The notes beneath the pieces were generated by a model. That model was not told the DNA's origin. It searched no databases and worked only from the letters and a program-made list of their open reading frames with translations. DNA of 64,000 bases, from the NCBI GenBank assembly GCA_027451865.1, contig DAIDHW010000002.1, positions 1 to 64,000 of the forward strand. Direction: 5' to 3'. Numbering within the stretch: the first letter of the stretch is position 1; each line of letters opens with the position of its first letter. The DNA is from Leptolyngbyaceae cyanobacterium clean351. GTDB lineage: Bacteria; Cyanobacteriota; Cyanobacteriia; DAIDHW01. Below, in pieces: positions 32,999 through 56,682 of this stretch. The position numbers and the translations under genes were made by a program.

Positions 32999-35800
32999 AT
33001 GGTGCTGGAAAATAGGCAGCTAGTTAAGCAACGTTGGGAAGAGCGCATCCTACCGAACTGGCCCCATAAAGACCGGCCAGAGGGGGAAAGGTTTCTTGGG
33101 AGTATCCGGTGTAAGCGTGAATCGGTAGATAAGCTGCTTGACTGCATTGGTGAAGACTTCTCTCGGCTAGAGAAGTTCACCTTCGACAGGATGAATAGGA
33201 GCTTCAGCAGCCTTGACCAGTACTGGATTAACCTGGTCACCTTCGCCATTTCAGAGTACGCCTACTACGACGCTACTGAAGGGGGTTTTTGGGAGGGTCT
33301 CCTGAAAAGACTCAGGCAACCTAATACCGATGCCAGTAAAGATGCCATTAAGGCGGTCCTAGACAAGGGATTCAAGCAGTTAGGTTTAATCCAGGCTCAA
33401 GGGGGCTACAAGTACGTTTCGACCCTCTGGCTACAAAGTGGTATACCGGCAAGGAGCAGCGAGCATTTTGCCCAGTTAGTAGAGGAGTTGGCCCGGGAAT
33501 ACGGCTGGTGGGATTTAGCCCACTACGATGATCCGGGCGACTTGAGCAAGCTGATGTTGGATGTTAGTAACGATAAACATCCAAGCTGGAAAACTCTTAA
33601 TCGCTTCCTCGGGCAAGAAGGGGAAGATGCTAGCCAACCAGGGAGGGTGCTACAGGGGATTGCTGCGGTTGCCTTGGAACTAGAGCGCCTTGACCTATCA
33701 GCAGAGGTATTTAAAGATGAGAGTAAGCGGGAAGAAAGACTGCGTCTGTACCGCATCCCTAACAATTTTTTCCTGCGAGACTGGAATGACCTCCTGAAGG
33801 TGTTGAGCTATAGACCTAAAAGTAGCACTAGCTCAAAACCCAAGTTACGTCAGAGGCCAAAGCCTTTATCTGTATGCTTGGACCTAGGGGACCTGGAAAC
33901 TATCCTTTTAATCCTACCAACCCAGAGGTTATGGGAGCCAGACTGGAAGGACTATCGCCAGGAATATTGCCATATTGATGTCGGTACAGAGCAACTCTGG
34001 GATGAACGCTTTCCGCAGGAGGGACCATTAGAAATCCCGGAGCTGAGCCAGAAAATTACATCACTCCCGGTTACCATGCCCTGGGAGTTGAAAAATAAAT
34101 CTGGAAAACAGCTCAAATCCTGGTCTTCACCTTCCCAGAATATCAGTAATTACTTAATCTTTGATGCCTGGACTGGACAGCAAATAACCCCAGAGAACCA
34201 TCGCATATGTAATGTTTCTGAGCTGGTTTACTTTTGTCCTGGGGACACAGAGGTTGATTTATCCGGGGAGATTACAGTTGTTAGCCGTCATCTAGGGTGT
34301 AGCATTGCCGAGTGGCGTGGGCAACATGTTACCCTCCAAGGAGCCAGAGGACAACTAAAGTTCAGATTTCCCGAGATAGTGAGTATTAACTGGCAGGCAG
34401 AGGAATTGCCTAAACCCAGACTACAGGGGCTAAGGTTAAAAGGAAAAGAACCTATATATCTTGAAGTACCGAGATTATGGTATCCCGGCAAAGAACGGAC
34501 TGAAATTAGCATTGTGATTGAAAACCTAGACCTAAAAGAAAGACTCCCAGAGCAAAAGAGACCGATTCCTCTAGTAGATGCTTGGGAGGAGATTGATTTC
34601 ACTGAGTCGATTAAGAGTGACGGTCAGTATAGCCTGAAAGTGTACGACAACCAGAACAGACCTATCTATGAGGTTCCAAGATTTTCCGTCCGCACAAGCT
34701 ATCCTGAGCCTCAGCCTACATCCTTCCACGTGAGAGTTAAAAAGGAGGGGGAAGAAATAAAAATCACCGATCTACCACTTAAACCTGAAAGTTTAGGGGA
34801 ATTGCGGTCACTAACATTAAACCTAGAGGGGTTATGGCCACTCGAGCTAGTGACGTTTGAATTGAAGGGTGAGGCGGGTGAAGCAACTCAAGATTGTACT
34901 GAGGTTAGACAGGCGGAATCCGATGGATCCCTTAGGGTGCGCCTAACTAATTTGTTGGCAAAACTATCTAGTGGCTACGACACTTGTCAGTTAACCTGCG
35001 ACATTTCAGAAATTAGGGATCTAGTATATTTCCAGAAAGACCCCATTAGTTGTACTTGGTCTACGGAAGGTATCCATTGTTCTAACTTAGTGCCCGGAAG
35101 AATATATAATCTCTACTGCTGGAACCTGCTGCACCCAGACCAGGATCCCCAGCCCCAGAAGCTTGAAGTACCTCTAGTTAAGGAAACTGGGTCTGCTGTT
35201 TTCATACCTCTCAGGGATCTTGGTCTAGGGGTCTACCACCTGGATCTGAGACTAGGTCAGGTAAGTAACCGACTGGGATGGTGGAGCAATCTTGCTCAGA
35301 TTAATCTTCCGGATGATGATGGACAAATCCCGCAAGGATTGGATCCCAACTGGCTACAGAAACTGGTGGAAGATTTACGGAATAACCCAGAAAAAATGGC
35401 CCCCGAGTTGCGGGATAAGCTGCTGCCCGAGATTTTGATATCTAAGTTAAAGAGGTTAATAGAAAATATAGAAAGGCTAACTAAAGACGCGGCTCCTGTT
35501 CCTACCCATCCCGATTCTCCAAACAAAATCAGATCTGGATTCTGCGTTATTAAAATCGATTCCAGAAGAAAGAAGGAATTCCAAAAAATCTTTAAGAAGA
35601 AACTTGAGAGTGGTCTAGGTCTTGAAAAATATAACGAGGATCCCTTGGGTGCAATTATATCCTGCGAGGGAGATTTAGAAGTAGTCAAACGGATTTTAGA
35701 GGAGATAAAGAAAGAGAGATCTATTGATTACACAACTAATTACAAAATCGAGAACCATGAACGCAGAAATCACCGCAGAAATCATCAAGGTTCTAAGTAG
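32999..35800 (+). CDS. Large protein of unknown family, first gene of the helicase operon
   Basis: A 933-residue protein I do not recognise. The start is the ATG at 32999 with AAGGGTG upstream. The N-terminal third (to about 290) is helical, with KQRWEERILPNWPHKDRP, SSLDQYWINLVTFAISEYAYYD and a wHTH-like ALDKGFKQLGLIQ region. The middle (about 300-760) is beta-rich with repeated strand patterns resembling Ig-like modules. The C-terminus (about 770-933) is helical and charged, with SKLKRLIENIERL and KKEFQKIFKKKLE. No nuclease, methylase or ATPase motif is visible. The next gene starts 44 bases inside its end. It may serve as a recognition or scaffold partner of the helicase at 36689; this role is inferred from operon position only. 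Confidence 0.85.
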   Translation: MVLENRQLVKQRWEERILPNWPHKDRPEGERFLGSIRCKRESVDKLLDCIGEDFSRLEKFTFDRMNRSFSSLDQYWINLVTFAISEYAYYDATEGGFWEGLLKRLRQPNTDASKDAIKAVLDKGFKQLGLIQAQGGYKYVSTLWLQSGIPARSSEHFAQLVEELAREYGWWDLAHYDDPGDLSKLMLDVSNDKHPSWKTLNRFLGQEGEDASQPGRVLQGIAAVALELERLDLSAEVFKDESKREERLRLYRIPNNFFLRDWNDLLKVLSYRPKSSTSSKPKLRQRPKPLSVCLDLGDLETILLILPTQRLWEPDWKDYRQEYCHIDVGTEQLWDERFPQEGPLEIPELSQKITSLPVTMPWELKNKSGKQLKSWSSPSQNISNYLIFDAWTGQQITPENHRICNVSELVYFCPGDTEVDLSGEITVVSRHLGCSIAEWRGQHVTLQGARGQLKFRFPEIVSINWQAEELPKPRLQGLRLKGKEPIYLEVPRLWYPGKERTEISIVIENLDLKERLPEQKRPIPLVDAWEEIDFTESIKSDGQYSLKVYDNQNRPIYEVPRFSVRTSYPEPQPTSFHVRVKKEGEEIKITDLPLKPESLGELRSLTLNLEGLWPLELVTFELKGEAGEATQDCTEVRQAESDGSLRVRLTNLLAKLSSGYDTCQLTCDISEIRDLVYFQKDPISCTWSTEGIHCSNLVPGRIYNLYCWNLLHPDQDPQPQKLEVPLVKETGSAVFIPLRDLGLGVYHLDLRLGQVSNRLGWWSNLAQINLPDDDGQIPQGLDPNWLQKLVEDLRNNPEKMAPELRDKLLPEILISKLKRLIENIERLTKDAAPVPTHPDSPNKIRSGFCVIKIDSRRKKEFQKIFKKKLESGLGLEKYNEDPLGAIISCEGDLEVVKRILEEIKKERSIDYTTNYKIENHERRNHRRNHQGSK

Positions 35801-36692
35801 CCACAGGCAATCTCACAACTCAGCCCTACCTCAACCCCTGCGCCGGCAGGACATAGTCAAGCTTGTCCAGGGTGCCTGTTCTCCCAGCCAAGATCACACG
35901 GAAGAAATTAAGCGAAGCCTGGATGAACTAGAAGCCCGGGGAGAAGTCCTAAGGGGCCCTCGTAACCTATACTGCGTAGCCCCACCAACCCTGATAGCCA
36001 GAACTGAGAAGCAGCTCAACCCCCTGCAGTTCTGTGGTGACCGGAGCTATTTAGGATTAGCCCATAAGTTATTAAAATCGGGTCAACCCTCAGACTCGCT
36101 GGAGGTAGCCCCCAGCTCCCAAGAGGCCGCTAAGGGGTTTTTCCATATACACCATCGCCTGAAGGAAAAGGGCATTAGGCTGCGGACAGTTGAGGAAATG
36201 TTACAGGTCTTGCCTAACCCTTCTCTTCCAAAACGTAACTCTGAGGTAGACAATAAATACCCCAATCCCTTCCGGGAGAAAAACTGGCCTGACCAGGAAA
36301 CGGTCACCCGTTATTCACCCCAACTAGGAGAGCAGAAGGACCGCTGGCGGGAACCGATGGAGCAGAGTTTACATGATGGTGGTGAGCTCTTGCGCCTGCC
36401 TACCGGTGAGTATCTCTGGTATAAACAAGGTAGCTGCTACGAATTAACCCCAGATCAAGCAACCTTAGCGATGTTTAAACTTGATCAAGATATGAAGTCC
36501 CCAGTAAAGGTGGTGTGGGATAAGGATAAGGGCGAGCTAAATTTAGACCAGGTGACCCTCCCCGGTAGTTACGCCCGGTTCCTATGGCGCTTATCTGAGC
36601 CTACCGATGCCTATCGAGTCCGGAGGTTTGGACGGGGTGACTACGATCGCTTGGAACAAGCTATGAAGAAACTGGGATGCAAACTAGTATGA
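35757..36692 (+). CDS. Unknown protein with winged-helix-like N-terminus, second gene of the helicase operon
   Basis: A 311-residue protein starting at ATG 35757, inside the end of the upstream gene. Residues about 1-80 look like a winged helix (TAEIIKVLSSH, RRQDIVKLVQG, IKRSLDELEARGEVLRGP), the kind of domain used for DNA binding. The middle is Pro/Lys-rich and probably flexible. The C-terminal part (about 210-311) has LRLPTGEYLWYKQGSCYELT and AYRVRRFGRGDYDRLEQAMK. No catalytic motif is seen. Its stop overlaps the helicase start in ATGA. It may deliver the helicase to DNA, a guess from context. Confidence 0.82.
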   Translation: MNAEITAEIIKVLSSHRQSHNSALPQPLRRQDIVKLVQGACSPSQDHTEEIKRSLDELEARGEVLRGPRNLYCVAPPTLIARTEKQLNPLQFCGDRSYLGLAHKLLKSGQPSDSLEVAPSSQEAAKGFFHIHHRLKEKGIRLRTVEEMLQVLPNPSLPKRNSEVDNKYPNPFREKNWPDQETVTRYSPQLGEQKDRWREPMEQSLHDGGELLRLPTGEYLWYKQGSCYELTPDQATLAMFKLDQDMKSPVKVVWDKDKGELNLDQVTLPGSYARFLWRLSEPTDAYRVRRFGRGDYDRLEQAMKKLGCKLV

Positions 36693-39600
36693 GCGACTAT
36701 CTCGACCCCATCAAGGTAATTGAGGATATTAAAGGGGATTTTATCCGCTACCTGTTGACCGCGTACCCCCTGCGAGACCCTCACCTTAGGTATGCACTTA
36801 AGACAGAACTAGAAAAACCAGGCTCGGTATGGCAAGAGCCTTACCTAGAAGGGTCTCAGCCCTACCAACCGGGCGCAACCCTGGCAAGCCTGTGCTCAGA
36901 TAACCTACTCCTACTACACCCCCAAATTTCCCAGCTGTTTCAACCAGCGGACCGCCCCCTCTACCAGCATCAAGAGCAGGCTATCCGGGCAGTCGTTGCC
37001 GATCAACAAAACCTAATTGTGGCCAGCGGCACCGGTTCAGGTAAAACCGAATGCTTCCTGATTCCCATGCTGGATATGCTCCTGAAGGAGGGCTCCCAGA
37101 AGCCTGGCGTAAGAGCATTAATCCTCTACCCCATGAATGCCCTAGTGAACGACCAGGTAAAACGGCTCCGCCAACTCCTAAGTCGGCAGCAAGGTAACGG
37201 CCCCGTAATCAAGTTTGGCTTCTATACCAGCCGCACTAAGAAGACTGAAAAGGATGCAATGAGGCAGCTAGAAGAAGAACTAGGTGCCTGGGAAGAGGAA
37301 GAACTGAGGAATTTTCTTACCGAGGATGAGCTGGGGCAGATCAATAGTAGGCGCAGACGTGAAAGCCTAGAAGCTAAGGTCAAGCAGAAAATATTAAAGG
37401 TGCAAGTAATCTCCAGGGAGAAGATTCAGGAAAGCCCGCCCCACATCCTGATAACTAACTACTCCATGCTGGAGCATATGCTGATTCGGCCAGTGGAGCG
37501 GGCGAGAATTTTTGATGCCTCTAAAGACACCTTTAAGATGTTGGTGGTAGACGAAGCCCACACCTACAACGGCTCCACCGGCACTGAAGTTTCTATGCTG
37601 ATCCGCCGCTTCAAACGAGCCCTAGGAAAAGAAGCACAGCAGATCCGAGCTATTGCCACCAGCGCTAGTCTGGGAAATCAGGAAGCAGATCATCAGGTAC
37701 TAGATTTTGCCAAGGATCTGTTTGGCGAGTCCTTCACACAGGTCATCCGTGGGGAGCGTCACCCGGCCCAGGAGAGACTCGGGTCACCCTACTCTCATCC
37801 CGCTACCCTAAGAGATTTTGCCCGGGATTTATCGGTACCCAATGACTCCCTGGAAGCTTGGGTCACCAAACTCAAGGATCTAGTCCCTGAGGAAGAACTT
37901 AACCAAGCCTACGAGGCAGCCAAAAATGAGCCTGACCAAAAGGTGCCCAAGCTGCTGTGGTTAGCCCTTAAAGGTCATCCCCTAGTCCATCGGCTCATTA
38001 AGATTCTAGAGGAACCTAAACCCTGGAAAACAGTTGTGCAGGAACTCTGGGAAATATCGGCAGAAACTCCAGGGCAAACTGAAGCTGAAATAGCATTAGC
38101 TCATCTTGCTCAGCTAGGCACGATGGCCCGTAAAGATTCAGAAGCACTCCCGTTATTGCCAGTTAGACTGCACCTGTTATTCCGCGGCCTCCAAGGCCTA
38201 TATGCTTGCATTAATCCTGAGTGTCCTGGAAAAATCCTAGACCCTCGCCATGGGCATGAGATAGCCAACCGCTACGGCAGGATTTATCTTGAAGAGCACA
38301 TCAAGTGTACTGACTGCGGTGCCCCAGTACTTGAAATAGCCAGCTGTAAAAAGTGTGCCCAAGCCTACGGCCTCCTGCCAAAAGATTTAGGGGCTACTGG
38401 CTCTGATGAGGCTAAGAGTAAAACTGGCTCTGACAATCCTAAGAGAGAAATTTACACTGTCACCCTGGGACCTTTGGATAGTCAGACCGAGGACGAGGAA
38501 GTTGATGAAACCCAGGAGAGCAAATTTGAGACCAGAGAGCTGAGCATCATCAAGGGTAATAATGGTTGGCAAATCACCAACACAATCCAAAATAATCAGA
38601 CCGGATTCAAAGTCCTAAGTCATACTTATGACGAGGAGAAAAAGGAAGAAGAGGGCATACTTTACAAGTGCCCAGGATGTCAGGGTGGCGAAAAAGACTA
38701 TCCAGCTATCAAGGGATTCTTTTCGTCTACCGATGCACCCCTATCGGTGATGATTGATAGCTTATTTGAGCTTCTACCCGAGGAAAAAGCTGAGTCAGAA
38801 GACTCCATACACACCCGCCGCAAGTTACTGGTCTTCTCCGACAACCGACAAGATGCCTCCTTCTTTGCCTCAGACTTCCAGCGCACCCACACAGAAACTC
38901 TCTACCGGCAACTAGTGTGGTGGGGATTTGTAGAGAAACTCGAACAAAAAAACCTAGAAAGATCTGAACAGGAAACCTCAAATGAACTGGCTATAGACCA
39001 ACTAGAGGATAAGTTGGTTGAGTACTTCGGTAAGTATTCTATTCCCCATCCTGACCGTGATCCTGAATTTCATCATCGCAGCTACATTAAAAATGATGAA
39101 TACGAAAATAGCTCATCTGAAAATAGCAATGAAGCGCTCCAAGGAAAACGTAAGGAGCGAGCAAGGGAACTGTTGCTAAGAGAATTTGGCCTCCCTTCAG
39201 CTCGTCGCTTCTCCCTCGAGGCTCTCGGGCTACTAGCCTGCCATGTGGGGGATTTTGATCCGCGGCTGGTGGAGATTACAAGCGCATGCCTGAGCATCAC
39301 ACCACCGGAGGCTGAAATATTCCTGCGCGGACTGACTGATGTTATACGTTTAGAGGGGATCCTGAAACTAGGTCCATCCTCACAATACTTTCGTGAAACT
39401 GAATTCCGTACAGATAATAAGGGTCACTTAAAGTACTATCTTACCTATGATAAGTACAAAAATGCCAAAGCAGACCGTGATGCTCGCTCAATGTTGCCCC
39501 GGTATAAGGAAGATGGTCAGCCCTACAAAATACAAGGGCCGATAGTCGCTTACTACAGCAAGTTTCTGACAACACTTCCTGAGCGTGAGGATCTGGAGGG

Positions 39601-41797
39601 AAAACTTTGGGATTTATACGAGAATCTGAAGGTTTTATTTATCGAGAAAGGCAGCGACAAATATCAGTTGTCCTGGGGCAATCTAAAGCTGTATCGGACC
39701 TCCGCCGACTGGTACCAATGCGGCTCTTGTCAGCAACTCTTTCACATTCCCGGTCTGGGTGAGGTGGATTCTCAGTTACCCTTCCTAAAGGAGCGTCGGT
39801 GTCCTGCTAAGTCGTGTCAAGGGAAGCTTGAGGCGTGGCATAGGCCTGAGCCTGATGATAACCACTACCGTCACCTGATTCAGCATCGGGAGGTAATTCC
39901 CCTCCGGGCTCAAGAACATACCGCCCAGATTGGGGTCACAGAATTAGAAACAAGGGAAGGCAAATTTCGGCGGGGTAAAATCAACCTCCTCAGCTGCACC
40001 ACAACCCTGGAGATGGGGATAGACATCGGGGGGCTCCAGGGGGTGGTGTTGCGCAACTTCCCCCCCTACGTCAGCAACTATCAGCAAAGGGCCGGGCGAG
40101 CAGGCCGCCGCACGGATGGGGTGGCAGTTAACCTGATGTACGGACAGCGGCGGGCCCATGACCGCTATTACTTTGACCGCCCCGCAGAGTTAATTAACGG
40201 TCAAAACCGGGTCCCGGTGATCGACCCCACTAATGAGCAAATCCAAGCCAGACACATTAGGGCTGAACTGCTGGCGGAATTTTTGCGGCCGCAGTCCAAG
40301 GGGCCGGAAGATGTCAAGATGGGAGAATTCCTAGGACTACCTGAATATCCCTACAATGGAGAGCCCAGTAACGGGATTCTAGTAAAATTTGAGGCTTGGT
40401 TGAGGACATCAGAAGCTAAAAAGTCCGTGGGTCAATGGATATCCAGCTTCAATGAGGAGCATACTAACGTAAAGATAACCGAAAGTATCACCGATAAATT
40501 CATTAACGAGTTTATTGATGAACTAGAGAGTTTCAAAAATGAACAGCTGAAGGACTGGGATGGCCTAAGAGATATGAAAGGGGAAATGGAAGGTAGTAAA
40601 CCTAAAAATTCAAATGAAGAAGATAGAATCAATTTCCGAAAAAAATCCATCAACAGAGAACTAGAGAAAGTCTTTGACCGAAAAATCCATGAAGAACTAG
40701 CCAGGGCTAGTATATTGCCCATCTATGGCTTCCCAGTGGATGTGGTACGTCTCATAACCCGAGATAGTGGAGATTACCAACGGGGGATCGAGGGTAAACA
40801 CCGCCTAGAGCGAGACCGCCGCGTTGCCCTAGCGGAGTATGCCCCAGGGCAAGATATTATTGTGGATGATCGGGTTCATCAGAGCGTGGGGATTTTGAAT
40901 CCCGCAAATCTCGAAAAAAGCTACTACGGAATATGTAAGAAATGCAATTATTTTGTCCATTCAAAAACTAATGCAAGTGTCCTCTGTAAATTTTGCGAAG
41001 ACACTATCGTTTTAAAGCCCTACATAGTTCCCAAGACCTTCACTACTGACACAGGAGAAAGCCCCAAGGTTACCCCAGATGAGAAGCCCAACCGGCAGCC
41101 TACGTCTGCTGTATTTCTGATTCCTGAGGGTGAGGTTAATGAGGGTGAGGCCGGGCAAACTGAGCAACCCAAACAACCCAACGACGATACACCATGGGAA
41201 CTAGAATGCCACCAGAGTGGTTTATTTTTCTTGGCTAATCAAGGGCCACTGGCTAACCGCGGCTTCGCTATTTGCAATCTATGCGGTCGAGACTTTAGCG
41301 ATAAGTTAGCAGATCAAAATACCAGGAAACGATCCTCTAGCAATACCCACACACACCCCCTGACGGGAAACTCCTGCGGCGGAAAATGCACTTATACCCA
41401 CCTAGGTCATATCTTTACAAGTGACTACCTCAAAATCAGGTTTGCCGCTCAGAATACATCTTCCGAAGGCTACCTTTCCCTGGTCTACGCCCTGCTAGAG
41501 GGCGCCGCCCGCGTCATCCAAGTGCCCCGCGCCGAGCTAGACGGACTATACCGCCCCTATGCCCAAGGTGACTACGAGATAGTTATCTACGACAACGTTC
41601 CGGGGGGGGCAGGCTATAACCAGCAGATCTGGGATAATTTCCCCGAGGTCCTCCAGACTGCCTACGAGATCTTAGATGGATGTAAATGCGGCAAAAGTTG
41701 TTACGATTGCCTGCGCACCTACTCCAATCAGCGGTTCCATGAGCAGTTAGACCGGCACCTGGCTAAGGGTTTCCTCAAACCTCTGGTCGAAACCTAA
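36689..41797 (+). CDS. Large DEAH helicase with zinc motifs and DUF1998-type C-terminus (DruE-like)
   Basis: A 1702-residue superfamily 2 helicase. The start is the ATG at 36689, overlapping the upstream stop as ATGA. A Q-motif region RPLYQHQEQAI precedes Walker A SGTGSGKTE (about 114-120). VVDEAHTYNGST is the DEAH box (about 287) and ATSASLG is motif III. A zinc-ribbon-like region follows (CINPECPG, CTDCG). More Cys pairs occur near 660, at 1010-1046 (CGSCQQ, CPAKSCQG) and 1416-1437 (CKKCNY, CKFCE). The helicase C half has TLEMGIDIGG and QQRAGRAGRR (about 1132). The C-terminus (1630-1702) has VPGGAGYN and CKCGKSCYDCLRTYSNQ, the DUF1998-type signature. Such large DUF1998 helicases are known as DruE in Druantia anti-phage systems; the short MrfA repair helicases are related. 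Domain calls are firm; the system assignment is inferred. Confidence 0.93.
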   Translation: MSDYLDPIKVIEDIKGDFIRYLLTAYPLRDPHLRYALKTELEKPGSVWQEPYLEGSQPYQPGATLASLCSDNLLLLHPQISQLFQPADRPLYQHQEQAIRAVVADQQNLIVASGTGSGKTECFLIPMLDMLLKEGSQKPGVRALILYPMNALVNDQVKRLRQLLSRQQGNGPVIKFGFYTSRTKKTEKDAMRQLEEELGAWEEEELRNFLTEDELGQINSRRRRESLEAKVKQKILKVQVISREKIQESPPHILITNYSMLEHMLIRPVERARIFDASKDTFKMLVVDEAHTYNGSTGTEVSMLIRRFKRALGKEAQQIRAIATSASLGNQEADHQVLDFAKDLFGESFTQVIRGERHPAQERLGSPYSHPATLRDFARDLSVPNDSLEAWVTKLKDLVPEEELNQAYEAAKNEPDQKVPKLLWLALKGHPLVHRLIKILEEPKPWKTVVQELWEISAETPGQTEAEIALAHLAQLGTMARKDSEALPLLPVRLHLLFRGLQGLYACINPECPGKILDPRHGHEIANRYGRIYLEEHIKCTDCGAPVLEIASCKKCAQAYGLLPKDLGATGSDEAKSKTGSDNPKREIYTVTLGPLDSQTEDEEVDETQESKFETRELSIIKGNNGWQITNTIQNNQTGFKVLSHTYDEEKKEEEGILYKCPGCQGGEKDYPAIKGFFSSTDAPLSVMIDSLFELLPEEKAESEDSIHTRRKLLVFSDNRQDASFFASDFQRTHTETLYRQLVWWGFVEKLEQKNLERSEQETSNELAIDQLEDKLVEYFGKYSIPHPDRDPEFHHRSYIKNDEYENSSSENSNEALQGKRKERARELLLREFGLPSARRFSLEALGLLACHVGDFDPRLVEITSACLSITPPEAEIFLRGLTDVIRLEGILKLGPSSQYFRETEFRTDNKGHLKYYLTYDKYKNAKADRDARSMLPRYKEDGQPYKIQGPIVAYYSKFLTTLPEREDLEGKLWDLYENLKVLFIEKGSDKYQLSWGNLKLYRTSADWYQCGSCQQLFHIPGLGEVDSQLPFLKERRCPAKSCQGKLEAWHRPEPDDNHYRHLIQHREVIPLRAQEHTAQIGVTELETREGKFRRGKINLLSCTTTLEMGIDIGGLQGVVLRNFPPYVSNYQQRAGRAGRRTDGVAVNLMYGQRRAHDRYYFDRPAELINGQNRVPVIDPTNEQIQARHIRAELLAEFLRPQSKGPEDVKMGEFLGLPEYPYNGEPSNGILVKFEAWLRTSEAKKSVGQWISSFNEEHTNVKITESITDKFINEFIDELESFKNEQLKDWDGLRDMKGEMEGSKPKNSNEEDRINFRKKSINRELEKVFDRKIHEELARASILPIYGFPVDVVRLITRDSGDYQRGIEGKHRLERDRRVALAEYAPGQDIIVDDRVHQSVGILNPANLEKSYYGICKKCNYFVHSKTNASVLCKFCEDTIVLKPYIVPKTFTTDTGESPKVTPDEKPNRQPTSAVFLIPEGEVNEGEAGQTEQPKQPNDDTPWELECHQSGLFFLANQGPLANRGFAICNLCGRDFSDKLADQNTRKRSSSNTHTHPLTGNSCGGKCTYTHLGHIFTSDYLKIRFAAQNTSSEGYLSLVYALLEGAARVIQVPRAELDGLYRPYAQGDYEIVIYDNVPGGAGYNQQIWDNFPEVLQTAYEILDGCKCGKSCYDCLRTYSNQRFHEQLDRHLAKGFLKPLVET

Positions 41798-42471
41798 GCC
41801 TCCAGTAAACTATAGCGGCCGTAGTAAGCTTGGGGTTCCCCCTGCACCCAAGCCCACAACTGGTCACCCCAAGAAAAGTGCCACCACTCCCCAGGATGAC
41901 GGGCAAACCCCTGGGCAGTCATCACCTGGTTGAGTAGCTGTCGGTGCCCGTGGGCAACCGGGTCAGATTCAGCGTAGTAATCGGGGGCCGAGCGCTCCGA
42001 TAGCTCATCGATGGGGGAACCCATGAAGACCGGCTGCCCCTGGGCATCCACTAGGGTCAAGTCTACCGCCGCCCCGGTGCTGTGGGGGGGTGGGGCCGCC
42101 GGGTCTAGGTTAGGGGGAGACCAGATCCGGTAAACCTCAGACAGCAGTTTTTCCCTGCCGGTCTCCGGGTCAACCCCCCGCTCCCGGGCTAGGCTCCCCA
42201 GGGTGTGCTGCACCATGAAAGCCTGCACCTCCACAGGCCGGTAGGCATCGAAAATCTGCAACCGCCACCCAGGGGCCAGCTGGCTCAGGGTAGCCTGGGC
42301 CTCCAGTAGTCGCTTGAGGACCCCGGAGCGCAGCCAGTCAGGGTCTCGATCCCCATAGGGGGCCCCCAGGCTGGCGTAGGGGTGGGGCTCTACCCAGGCA
42401 AGGGACCCCCGGGGAATGGGCTGGAGGGGCTCCCGGCATTCTCGGATCGGCAGCCGGTGGTAGGGCCTCAC
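41794..42471 (-). CDS. D-alanyl-D-alanine dipeptidase (VanX/DdpX family)
   Basis: The 225-residue zinc peptidase has the metal and active-site motifs [10 protein letters not shown] (S-x-G-x-A-x-D, about residues 110-119) and [10 protein letters not shown] (E-x-x-H). The Arg region IFDAYRP is also present. Family members cleave D-Ala-D-Ala, recycling or remodelling peptidoglycan precursors; in cyanobacteria the physiological role is unclear. There is no signal peptide. It ends interlocked with the helicase stop (four shared bases) and overlaps accD by four bases at its start. Confidence 0.9.
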
Positions 42472-52648: not shown

Positions 52649-53566
52649 ATGGGGGGCTTGGGGCGCAGGCTAGCCCCCTGGGGTCGCTGGGTCATCTTTG
52701 GCAGTACAGTTTTTTTTCTTGTCCATGCCCTAGGGACCCACTGGCAAGAATTCCAAAATACCCACCTGCAACCCGCTAGCTGGCGTCAAGTGCTCCTGGC
52801 TTTGGGTTTTACCTTGGGGGCCCACAGCTGGGCGGGCTGGGTGTGGCAGCTTACCCTCCAGCAGCTGGGCTACCGGGTACCAGTCCTATGGGCAATTCGG
52901 GTCTACCTAAAAACCAACAGTGCTAAATACTTGCCTGGGAATATTTGGCACTTTTACGGCCGAGTCAGGGCGGTCCAGCGCACCGGCGCCAGCTTAGGCC
53001 TGGGGGTGGTGAGTGTGCTCCTTGAACCGCTGCTGATGGCATTAGCTGCCCTGGGTTGGGGTAGCTTAGGTTCCCCTAGCCCTTGGCAGCAATTGTCCTG
53101 GGCAGGTCTAGGGGTAGGCTTGATGCTGATTCATCCCCGATTTCTCAACCCCTTGTTGCTCTTTTGGAGTCGAGCTAAGGCCAAACTATTGGCCCAGGAG
53201 GCAGGTTTAGAGGTGGTGAAGCTGCAGCGCTACCCCTGGGCGCTGATCGCTGGGGAGGGGGTGTTTTTAACCCTGCGGGGTACAGCTTTCGCACTAGCAT
53301 TAGCTGTATTTACCCCTGTGGCCCTCTGGGATTTACCCTGGGCTTACAGCGGTTTTGCTTTGGCCTGGCTAGTGGGCCTAATTGTACCGGGTGCACCGGC
53401 AGGCCTAGGGGTATTTGAGCTGACAGCAGTAGTTTTACTTTCTGGTTTGTGCCCCTTCAATGACCTGCTGAGCGCCATTCTCTGCTACCGCTTTATCAGC
53501 ATTGTGGCGGAAGCCTTAGGGGCCAGCTGGGCCTGGATAACCGAACCTAAAACTGCAGTTAGGTAA
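52649..53566 (+). CDS. UPF0104/LPG-synthase-like membrane protein
   Basis: A 305-residue protein with about eight hydrophobic segments. Motifs RVYLKTNSAKYLPGNIWHFYGR (near 90-111) and GLIVPGAPAGLGVFELTAVVLLSG (near 245-270) match the lysylphosphatidylglycerol synthase TM region (UPF0104). The catalytic aminoacyl-transfer domain is absent, so flippase or lipid-related transport is only a possibility. The gene lies just before the predicted origin and is probably cotranscribed with glgA. Confidence 0.82.
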   Translation: MGGLGRRLAPWGRWVIFGSTVFFLVHALGTHWQEFQNTHLQPASWRQVLLALGFTLGAHSWAGWVWQLTLQQLGYRVPVLWAIRVYLKTNSAKYLPGNIWHFYGRVRAVQRTGASLGLGVVSVLLEPLLMALAALGWGSLGSPSPWQQLSWAGLGVGLMLIHPRFLNPLLLFWSRAKAKLLAQEAGLEVVKLQRYPWALIAGEGVFLTLRGTAFALALAVFTPVALWDLPWAYSGFALAWLVGLIVPGAPAGLGVFELTAVVLLSGLCPFNDLLSAILCYRFISIVAEALGASWAWITEPKTAVR

Positions 53567-53589: not shown

Positions 53590-53905
53590 GGCGGAAGACA
53601 TGTAAATTTTTATTAAATTTTTATATGTACTTTCTTAAAGTACATATGATCCCGTGGAAAAAATGGCTTTTTCTAGGGAAAACTTGGGGAAAACTCGGGG
53701 AAAACTCGGCAGAGATTGTGGATAAAAATTGGTGGTTTATTTGAACTGTGGAAAAAAAGGGGGGGTTTTCCCCAGATTTTCCACAAGCACTTTTAGGCTG
53801 TAAACTTTACCAATTAAGGGTCCGCCTTGAGTTTTCCCCAGTTTCCACAGACTCTACTACTACTAATTAAATTAATTTAAATCAGCAGGATTATTTAAAG
53901 CGCAA
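53590..53905. other. Predicted chromosomal replication origin (oriC)
   Basis: An AT-rich intergenic stretch upstream of dnaN contains a cluster of DnaA-box-like 9-mers. Exact TTTTCCACA forms: 53747-53755 (minus) and 53777-53785 (plus); TTATCCACA: 53717-53725 (minus). One-mismatch forms: 53653-53661, 53841-53849, and TTTTCCCCA at 53685-53693, 53766-53774 and 53832-53840. AT-rich runs at 53600-53647 and 53862-53900 are candidate unwinding elements. Cyanobacterial origins typically lie next to dnaN with these boxes. No dnaA gene is nearby. Confidence 0.82.
53623..53647. repeat. Perfect 11-bp inverted repeat in the AT-rich origin flank
   Basis: ATATGTACTTT, a three-base CTT loop and AAAGTACATAT form a perfect palindrome at the left side of the DnaA box cluster. 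It could aid duplex unwinding, bind an origin protein, or end the upstream glgA-operon transcript. Confidence 0.6.
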
Positions 53906-54006: not shown

Positions 54007-55134
54007 ATGAAATTCACCTGCCCTGTCCAAGAGTTCAAAACCCAACTTGCTGCCGCCGGGCGTGCCACAGCTCAACGGTCCCTTAATCCTGCCTGGGGTA
54101 AGGTTTTAATCAAGGCCGCAGAGTTGGACCAGCTAGTTACCCTGACGGGTTTTGACGGCCGGATGGGGATTCAGGCCAACTTAACTGCCGAGGTTACTAG
54201 GACCGGTTCCCTCGCTGTTTCACCCTCCTTAATACAAGAAATTGTCACCCAGGCGGCAGGAGAAACTTTAACCATGACCACCAAGGGGGAGCAGCTATTT
54301 CTGGCGAGTGGGCCTAGCCAGTACGAAATCTCAGGTAGTGATGGGGAGCTGTTCCCCGTAGTACCGGAAGTGGAAGCGCCTCTTATGTTGGAGGTTGGGC
54401 AAGAGGATTTAGCCGCTGCTCTCCAGGGGACGTTGTTTGCCGCTAGCACAGAGGAAGGCAAGCAGGTGTTGATGGGAGCTAGATTGACCTTCGATGAAAC
54501 AGGCCTAGAGGTCGCTGCTACCGACGGCCACCGCCTGGCTATTGCCCAGCTGTCCCAAGGGGGATTTAACTCCCTTGAGGTTACTATTCCCGCGCGGGCC
54601 CTCGGAGAAGTGGAGCGGGCCCTAAAGGCTGCCAGGGATAGAAAAACTGAGGGGGAGAAACTGAAGATGATGGTGGGCTCAACCCAGGCAGCCTTTTTTT
54701 TCCCCCACCAGACCATCACCACCCAGCTGATGGATGGCCAATACCCCAACTACCGCAAGCTACTCCCCCCCAGCTTCAAGTATCACGTGACCGTAGAGCG
54801 TCGGCTACTGCTTGCTGCCCTCAGCCGGGTTGCCGTTCTGGCGGATAAACACAATCCCGTGGTCAAGATGGACATCCAGGAGGCTGACCAGCAGCTGACC
54901 TTGACAGTCAACACCCCCGACGTGGGTAAGGGGGAAGAAAGCCTTCCTGCCCAAATTGCTGGGGGGGATTTGACAGTGGCCATGAACACTCGTTACCTGA
55001 CTCAAGGCCTGAAGGTGCTTTCCGGCAATGAGGTGCACCTGGAATTAAATGGTCCCTTGACTCCGGTGATTTTCCAGTCCCGCGGGGTAATACACGTCAC
55101 CTATCTGGTGATGCCGGTTCAACTGCGCTCCTAG
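54007..55134 (+). CDS. dnaN: DNA polymerase III sliding clamp (beta subunit)
   Basis: The 375-residue protein forms the ring that holds DNA polymerase on its template. It shows the three similar clamp domains. N-terminal MKFTCPVQEFKTQLAAAGRA, then QVLMGARLTFDETGLEVAATDGHRLA (domain 2) and MDGQYPNYRKLLPPSF (the clamp-typical loop) are followed by the C-terminal YLVMPVQL, which resembles the family's conserved end. It is immediately right of the predicted origin, the usual cyanobacterial arrangement. Confidence 0.96.
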   Translation: MKFTCPVQEFKTQLAAAGRATAQRSLNPAWGKVLIKAAELDQLVTLTGFDGRMGIQANLTAEVTRTGSLAVSPSLIQEIVTQAAGETLTMTTKGEQLFLASGPSQYEISGSDGELFPVVPEVEAPLMLEVGQEDLAAALQGTLFAASTEEGKQVLMGARLTFDETGLEVAATDGHRLAIAQLSQGGFNSLEVTIPARALGEVERALKAARDRKTEGEKLKMMVGSTQAAFFFPHQTITTQLMDGQYPNYRKLLPPSFKYHVTVERRLLLAALSRVAVLADKHNPVVKMDIQEADQQLTLTVNTPDVGKGEESLPAQIAGGDLTVAMNTRYLTQGLKVLSGNEVHLELNGPLTPVIFQSRGVIHVTYLVMPVQLRS

Positions 55135-55167: not shown

Positions 55168-56682
55168 GTGCGTATATTCACAACCGTACTGGGTCTACGC
55201 ACCGCCTTGAGGGGGGATGGACAACTGGGTCTTGTCCCCACCATGGGGGCTCTGCACGCGGGTCACCGCAGTATCGTGGAGCGGGCCCGGCGGGAGAATG
55301 AGCGCCTCGTAGTGAGCTTATTTGTTAACCCGCTGCAGTTCGGCCCCGATGAAGACTTCCAGCAATATCCCCGGACTCCGGAAGCTGACCAGGCATTGTG
55401 TGCCAGCCTGGGAGTTGACTTTCTGTTTATGCCCTCCGCGGCCGAATTGGGGATTTGCAACCTAGGTACCCAGGTTGTCCCTCCCCCCGCGATGGCTGCG
55501 GTGCTCTGCGGTCCCGGGCGCCCTGGCCACTTTACTGGTGTGGCTACCATCGTCACCCAGCTGTTGCAGATTGTTCAACCCCAGCGGGCCTACTTTGGCC
55601 AGAAAGATGCCCAGCAGGTGGCGATCATCCGGCGGGTGGTGGCGGACCTGCGGATACCTACCCAAATCCTCACCTGTCCTACCTGGCGCGAGTCCAGCGG
55701 CTTGGCCTATAGCTCCCGGAACCAATACCTTAGCCCCCAAGCCAAGCAGCAGGCAGCTATCCTCTACCAGAGTTTAACTGCGGCGGCGGCGGTCTTTACA
55801 ACTGGCTGCCGGGAACGCCTAGAACTGCTAGAGGTAGTCCGCCGGGAGCTGGCCAAGGAGCCTGGGGTCAAACTGGAATACCTGGATCTGGTGCATCCTG
55901 TTACCCTGACCCCCTTAGAAGTCGTTGCTGGCCAGGGACTATTAGCTCTGGCTGCCTGGGTAGATTCAACTCGTCTGATTGACAACCTGCTGTTGAGCCA
56001 AAGGCGCCCGATTTTAGCCATCGATGGCCCTGCCGGGGCGGGAAAGTCGACCGTTGCCCAGCGGGTGGCCCAGATACTGGGGCTTTTATATCTTGATTCA
56101 GGCGCCATGTACCGGGCCGTGACCTGGTTAGTCCTAGATGCCAAGGTGCCGGTGACTGATGAGGCAGCGGTAGCTGAGCTAGTGGGCCAGGCGCAGTTGG
56201 AGATGCGGACTGGTCCTGAGGGAATGCAGGTTTGGGTCAACGGCACTGATGTGACCATGGCGATCCGTGACCCCCAAGTCACAGAGCAGGTGCCCGGTAT
56301 TGCTGCCCAGGCTGCGGTGCGGGAATATCTCCTAGGCCACCAGCAGGCCTACGGTGCCCAGGGGGGGATCGTGATGGACGGCCGCGATATCGGTACCCAG
56401 GTCTTTCCCGACGCCGAGGTGAAGGTTTTTTTAACGGCTTCTAATCAAGAGCGGGCGCGCCGGCGTTACCTGGACCTCCAGGCCCGGGGCTATACTAGTC
56501 CTTCCCGAGAGCAACTAGAGCAGGACATTCAGGAGCGCGACTTGTTTGATAGTACTAGAGCGCTATCTCCCCTCCGGCGGGCGGTGGATGCTGTAGAAAT
56601 ACAAACCGACAATCTAACCCTTGAGGCAGTAGTTGAGCGAGTGGTTGCACTTTACCGGGAGCGGGGGGGGGAACCCAGTTAA
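55168..56682 (+). CDS. panC/cmk: Pantoate-beta-alanine ligase / cytidylate kinase fusion
   Basis: A 504-residue two-domain enzyme, a fusion typical of cyanobacteria. Residues 1 to about 278 are PanC (LVPTMGALHAGHRSIVERA with the HxGH motif, FVNPLQFGPDEDF, YFGQKDAQQ), which makes pantothenate for CoA. Residues about 280-504 are CMP kinase (AIDGPAGAGKSTVAQ P-loop, LDSGAMYRAVTWL, DGRDIGTQVFPDA). GTG at 55168 is the start, with GGGAG about eight bases upstream. It begins 33 bases after dnaN. Confidence 0.96.
   Translation: MRIFTTVLGLRTALRGDGQLGLVPTMGALHAGHRSIVERARRENERLVVSLFVNPLQFGPDEDFQQYPRTPEADQALCASLGVDFLFMPSAAELGICNLGTQVVPPPAMAAVLCGPGRPGHFTGVATIVTQLLQIVQPQRAYFGQKDAQQVAIIRRVVADLRIPTQILTCPTWRESSGLAYSSRNQYLSPQAKQQAAILYQSLTAAAAVFTTGCRERLELLEVVRRELAKEPGVKLEYLDLVHPVTLTPLEVVAGQGLLALAAWVDSTRLIDNLLLSQRRPILAIDGPAGAGKSTVAQRVAQILGLLYLDSGAMYRAVTWLVLDAKVPVTDEAAVAELVGQAQLEMRTGPEGMQVWVNGTDVTMAIRDPQVTEQVPGIAAQAAVREYLLGHQQAYGAQGGIVMDGRDIGTQVFPDAEVKVFLTASNQERARRRYLDLQARGYTSPSREQLEQDIQERDLFDSTRALSPLRRAVDAVEIQTDNLTLEAVVERVVALYRERGGEPS

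Follow-up and report, generated by a model that had tools for sequence, protein, structure and literature searches.

Genes and DnaA boxes at the locus

The window (64,000 bp, the whole stretch that was analysed) corresponds to positions 1-64000 of contig C2 (226,901 bp), which belongs to a draft genome of 2.48 Mb in 48 contigs. The region described here is intergenic. It is located directly upstream of dnaN, which codes for the beta clamp of DNA polymerase III, and downstream of a gene for a membrane protein (Table 1). The first-pass annotation had placed the site between a UPF0104-like gene and dnaN, and both assignments are borne out by Pfam (PF03706, the former UPF0104, and all three beta-clamp domains, respectively). 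Just downstream of dnaN, at 55168-56682, pantoate ligase and cytidylate kinase are encoded as a single ORF (panC-cmk fusion). The dnaA gene is found on a different contig. Its product is full-length (455 aa), has the N-terminal, AAA+ and DNA-binding domains of DnaA and contains the DHTTV motif. Judged by these features, the gene is intact, and DnaA activity is predicted.

Table 1. Features of the dnaN-upstream region and its flanking genes. Offsets are relative to box F4 (template: approximate consensus of relatives; window: this genome).
Feature	Position	Strand	Template offset	Window offset	Evidence or remark
LPG_synthase_TM membrane protein (PF03706; former UPF0104)	52649..53566	+			Pfam E 1.1e-8
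Left AT-rich flank with perfect inverted repeat	53602..53646				least stable duplex in 224 kb
DnaA box R1 TTTTCCACG	53653..53661	-	-186	-188
DnaA box R2 TTTTCCCTA, degenerate, A7C; first of three with 11-bp spacing	53674..53682	-	-165	-167	position kept in relatives
DnaA box R3 TTTTCCCCA, A7C	53685..53693	-	-154	-156
DnaA box R4 TTTTCCCCG, degenerate, A7C	53696..53704	-	-143	-145	position kept in relatives
DnaA box R5 TTATCCACA, exact	53717..53725	-	-122	-124
DnaA box R6 TTTTCCACA, exact	53747..53755	-	-92	-94
DnaA box F1 TTTTCCCCA, A7C	53766..53774	+	-74	-75
DnaA box F2 TTTTCCACA, exact; 11 bp from F1	53777..53785	+	-63	-64
DnaA box F3 TTTTCCCCA, A7C; first box of unwinding module	53832..53840	+	-9	-9
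DnaA box F4 GTTTCCACA, abuts F3	53841..53849	+	0	0
Spacer GACT (4 bp), F4 to trios	53850..53853	+
DnaA-trios CTACTACTACTA: four CTA repeats (3'-GAT-5' on other strand)	53854..53865	+
AT-rich unwinding region after trios	53866..53898				duplex stability
dnaN, DNA polymerase III beta clamp	54007..55134	+			Pfam, all three beta-clamp domains

The interval 53653-53849 contains eight 9-mers that differ from TTTTCCACA or TTATCCACA (TTWTCCACA) by no more than one base (R1, R3, R5, R6 and F1 to F4 in Table 1). Three of these are exact (R5, R6 and F2), and another three have the sequence TTTTCCCCA. The count of eight, three of them exact, agrees with the first-pass annotation. The full array, however, has ten sites, since the window fills all positions of a template derived from relatives (see below), which revealed two more degenerate sites (R2 and R4). 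No other such cluster exists in the 1.42 Mb that were read: the maximum elsewhere is three boxes per 400 bp, as reached in contig C1 (1.2 Mb, half of the genome), and the rest of the window has at most two in any 400-bp stretch. From the box density of C2, about 0.1 boxes would be expected instead of eight, and the reversed-sequence control has none in the 1.1 kb upstream of dnaN. Exact TTWTCCACA occurs 32 times in the 2.48 Mb, with three copies here within 70 bp, and three of the four TTTTCCCCA copies in the window belong to the cluster.

The conserved template and the unwinding module

The regions upstream of dnaN were compared among the whole genomes of 51 relatives and 80 named cyanobacterial loci. 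Box F4 together with the trios served as the anchor, by which 70 non-redundant regions could be aligned. One template of six reverse and four forward boxes is common to these regions. Each template position is matched in 36-69 of about 70 regions, compared to 64 matches in 3500 at off-template offsets. The window has all ten positions filled in the same order and on the same strand, with one or two extra bases inserted in the spacers. The distance from the anchor to dnaN is 118-651 bp.

At least four boxes are present upstream of dnaN in 47 of the 51 relatives. Three of the remaining four (L014, L037 and L056) have the module elsewhere in the genome, while for the fourth (L033) the contig extends just 173 bp upstream of dnaN. 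In family f26 and in G017 (G017, G029, G043, G057, G068, G101, G111, G119, G139, G146 and G153), the module is found from about 14 kb to more than 1 Mb away from dnaN, so that oriC and dnaN are separated in these genomes. Among the 80 named loci, no anchor could be placed for several Nostocales and some picocyanobacteria, which is compatible with reports that some cyanobacteria no longer depend on DnaA (PMC7198777). DnaA boxes are absent from the 1.1 kb upstream of dnaN in L128, L149, L153, L160, L180, L187 and L189 (several Nostocales, Moorena), and many more loci have boxes upstream of dnaN but lack CTA trios. Such box-less or trio-less dnaN loci may mark a loss of dependence on DnaA and oriC. 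Whether a genome has the box-plus-trio module could be a sequence marker for cyanobacteria that still use both.

The sequence at 53832-53882, in which the first-pass annotation had not noted the trios, is TTTTCCCCA-GTTTCCACA-GACT-CTACTACTACTA-ATTAAATTAATTTAAAT. The lower strand of the repeat reads 3'-GATGATGATGAT-5', which is the DnaA-trio consensus described for the basal unwinding system (BUS; PMC8287927). A BUS was taken to be a DnaA box 0-16 bp from at least three trios having a central A; here, the spacer is 4 bp, and four CTA repeats follow. When the whole genome was searched for TTTCCACA-N4-CTACTACTA, allowing two mismatches, the pattern was found here with none and at one other place with two. 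Among 194 genomes from the class, 140 contain it with no more than one mismatch, and hardly any of these has a second copy; control matches were few.

AT-rich flanks had also been noted at the first pass, and both are among the least stable DNA in 224 kb. The 45 bp starting at 53854 (trios and AT run, to 53898) belong to the least stable 0.02% of 45-mers, and an AT peak directly after the trios is seen in the relatives as well as in the window. The left flank (53602-53646) is the least stable 45-mer of all. It overlaps an inverted repeat with perfect 11-bp arms (53623-53633/53637-53647, ATATGTACTTT-ctt-AAAGTACATAT), which folds far better than shuffled sequences (z -5.1). This flank is a possible auxiliary (second) unwinding region, terminator or protein site. 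Hairpins with arms of at least 8 bp were found in 6 of 68 left flanks (0.7 expected), so that the palindrome is not clearly a common feature and is at most an occasional one.

A position-specific box variant

By far the commonest departure from the box consensus is A to C at position 7 (A7C, as in TTTTCCCCA), which is found in 94 of 579 template sites (A to T: 7; A to G: 5). Its rate differs between sites: 39% for R3, 50% for R4, 35% for R5 and 21% for F1, none in 54 for R6, and 8-15% for the others. This unevenness was never reached when labels were shuffled within genomes, neither with all 70 regions (0 of 5000 trials) nor with the 51 regions that are less than 70% alike (also 0 of 5000). 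Because C is strongly favoured over G and T and R6 is spared, A7C is not attributed to drift at unimportant sites. That A7C recurs at particular positions in relatives supports the view that these boxes are a genuine class of variant sites. With five A7C boxes among its ten (R2, R3, R4, F1 and F3), the window is joint highest among the 70 regions. It has only three exact boxes, while L023 and L026, which we tentatively take to be S. elongatus and which share box pairs and trios with the window, have eight each.

A7C boxes presumably bind DnaA weakly. Their position specificity suggests graded low-affinity sites as in the oriC of E. coli, where two opposing halves each have arrays of weak sites, separated by 2 bp, among the strong ones (PMC6727663). 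The window likewise has presumably weak sites 2 bp apart (R2, R3 and R4 are spaced by 11 bp from start to start) between strong ones, and two opposing halves. It differs from E. coli in its boxes, which are of the TTTTCCMCA type, in having dnaN as the next gene and in the trios beyond the forward pair. We consider this a likeness of function, which does not imply common descent.

We tentatively propose, as a possibility with somewhat less than even odds, that the class-wide ten-site oriC contains an affinity code. Weak A7C boxes would be selected at R3 to R5 (less so at F1) and never at R6; DnaA would occupy the strong anchors before it fills the weak array with 11-bp spacing, which would set the timing of initiation as in E. 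coli. This species, having five A7C boxes, would represent the weak extreme. The position-specific A7C boxes may be the only part of this description that is new; a limited literature search returned nothing on low-affinity boxes in S. elongatus or on TTTTCCCCA in connection with DnaA. Through them, the question of whether cyanobacteria load DnaA in a set order becomes accessible to direct tests.

Assignment as chromosomal origin

We assign the region at about 53600-53900 as the chromosomal oriC of this cyanobacterium, with a probability of about 0.92. The box cluster, the ten-site geometry, the trios, the unstable AT-rich flank, the adjacency to dnaN and the full-length dnaA all support the cyanobacterial oriC that had been suggested at the first pass. 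By structure and descent, the site is an oriC of the usual cyanobacterial type, and its unwinding module is intact. This provides a firm oriC for a lineage whose closest compared relatives share only the class, and origins of cyanobacteria can now be described by a precise template of ten sites.

Several characterized systems are similar. The oriC of Synechococcus elongatus PCC 7942 is located in the intergenic region at dnaN and has 11 TTTTCCACA boxes; the window resembles it in having boxes of this type next to dnaN, with dnaA elsewhere (PMC3480399). DnaA from S. elongatus unwinds its own box-plus-trio substrate in vitro (PMC8287927), and domain IV of DnaA from Cyanothece footprints boxes beside dnaN (PMC4674748). 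The window shares a box pair, a short spacer, repeated 3'-GAT-5' trios and an AT-rich run with the BUS of Bacillus subtilis and other bacteria (PMC8287927). Differences from that BUS are the gapless junction of F3 and F4 and the A7C variant in F3; unwinding activity of the module in the window is predicted.

Based on work on relatives, DnaA binding, melting and use as an origin can be expected. DnaA would first occupy the high-affinity boxes R5, R6 and F2; the weaker boxes with 11-bp spacing (R2 to R4 and F1) would then be filled cooperatively, an order proposed purely by analogy with E. coli. From the F3/F4 pair, DnaA would extend along a single strand of the trios (CTA repeats), the duplex would melt from 53854 towards dnaN, and the helicase would be loaded there.

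A switch in GC skew was looked for in 224 kb around the site and none was found, with skew weak throughout the DNA read and contigs unordered. In the 30 kb on either side of the site, the skew is -0.005 and +0.013 (rank 94 of 328). Since the skew is weak in the DNA read, the assembly consists of 48 contigs and cyanobacteria often have irregular skew (PMC7198777), this result decides neither way. Contig C1 has a uniform weak negative skew (-0.012) without a clear switch, as if it were within one replication arm.

A conserved oriC does not prove its use, because some cyanobacteria retain dnaA but replicate without DnaA (PMC7198777). The site might thus be an origin by descent that is now a relic or in part-time use, with the polyploid cell using more than one initiation site or dispensing with DnaA, for which Synechocystis 6803 and Nostoc 7120 are precedents. 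The missing skew switch and weak skew would fit, as would the irregular skew of such lineages (PMC7198777) and the high A7C number. We nevertheless consider this unlikely, because the genome has a single, perfect trio module (CTA x4), all ten positions are retained, dnaA is full-length, and A7C is position-specific, unlike random decay.

It is considerably less likely still that the boxes form a region through which DnaA regulates dnaN, rather than an origin. They are directly upstream of this gene, and DnaA can also regulate transcription (PMC7198777), but a promoter would require neither ten boxes in fixed phase nor DnaA-trios, and the family f26 relatives have the same module away from dnaN. 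The AT-richness of the intergenic region might favour a cluster arising by chance, an explanation with negligible probability that we reject on the grounds of box density (including the empty reversed control) and conservation, the same geometry being found in dozens of distant genomes.

Elsewhere in the window, the stretch at 33000-42000 has a GC content of 45-51%, compared to about 56% around it, and is possibly acquired DNA.
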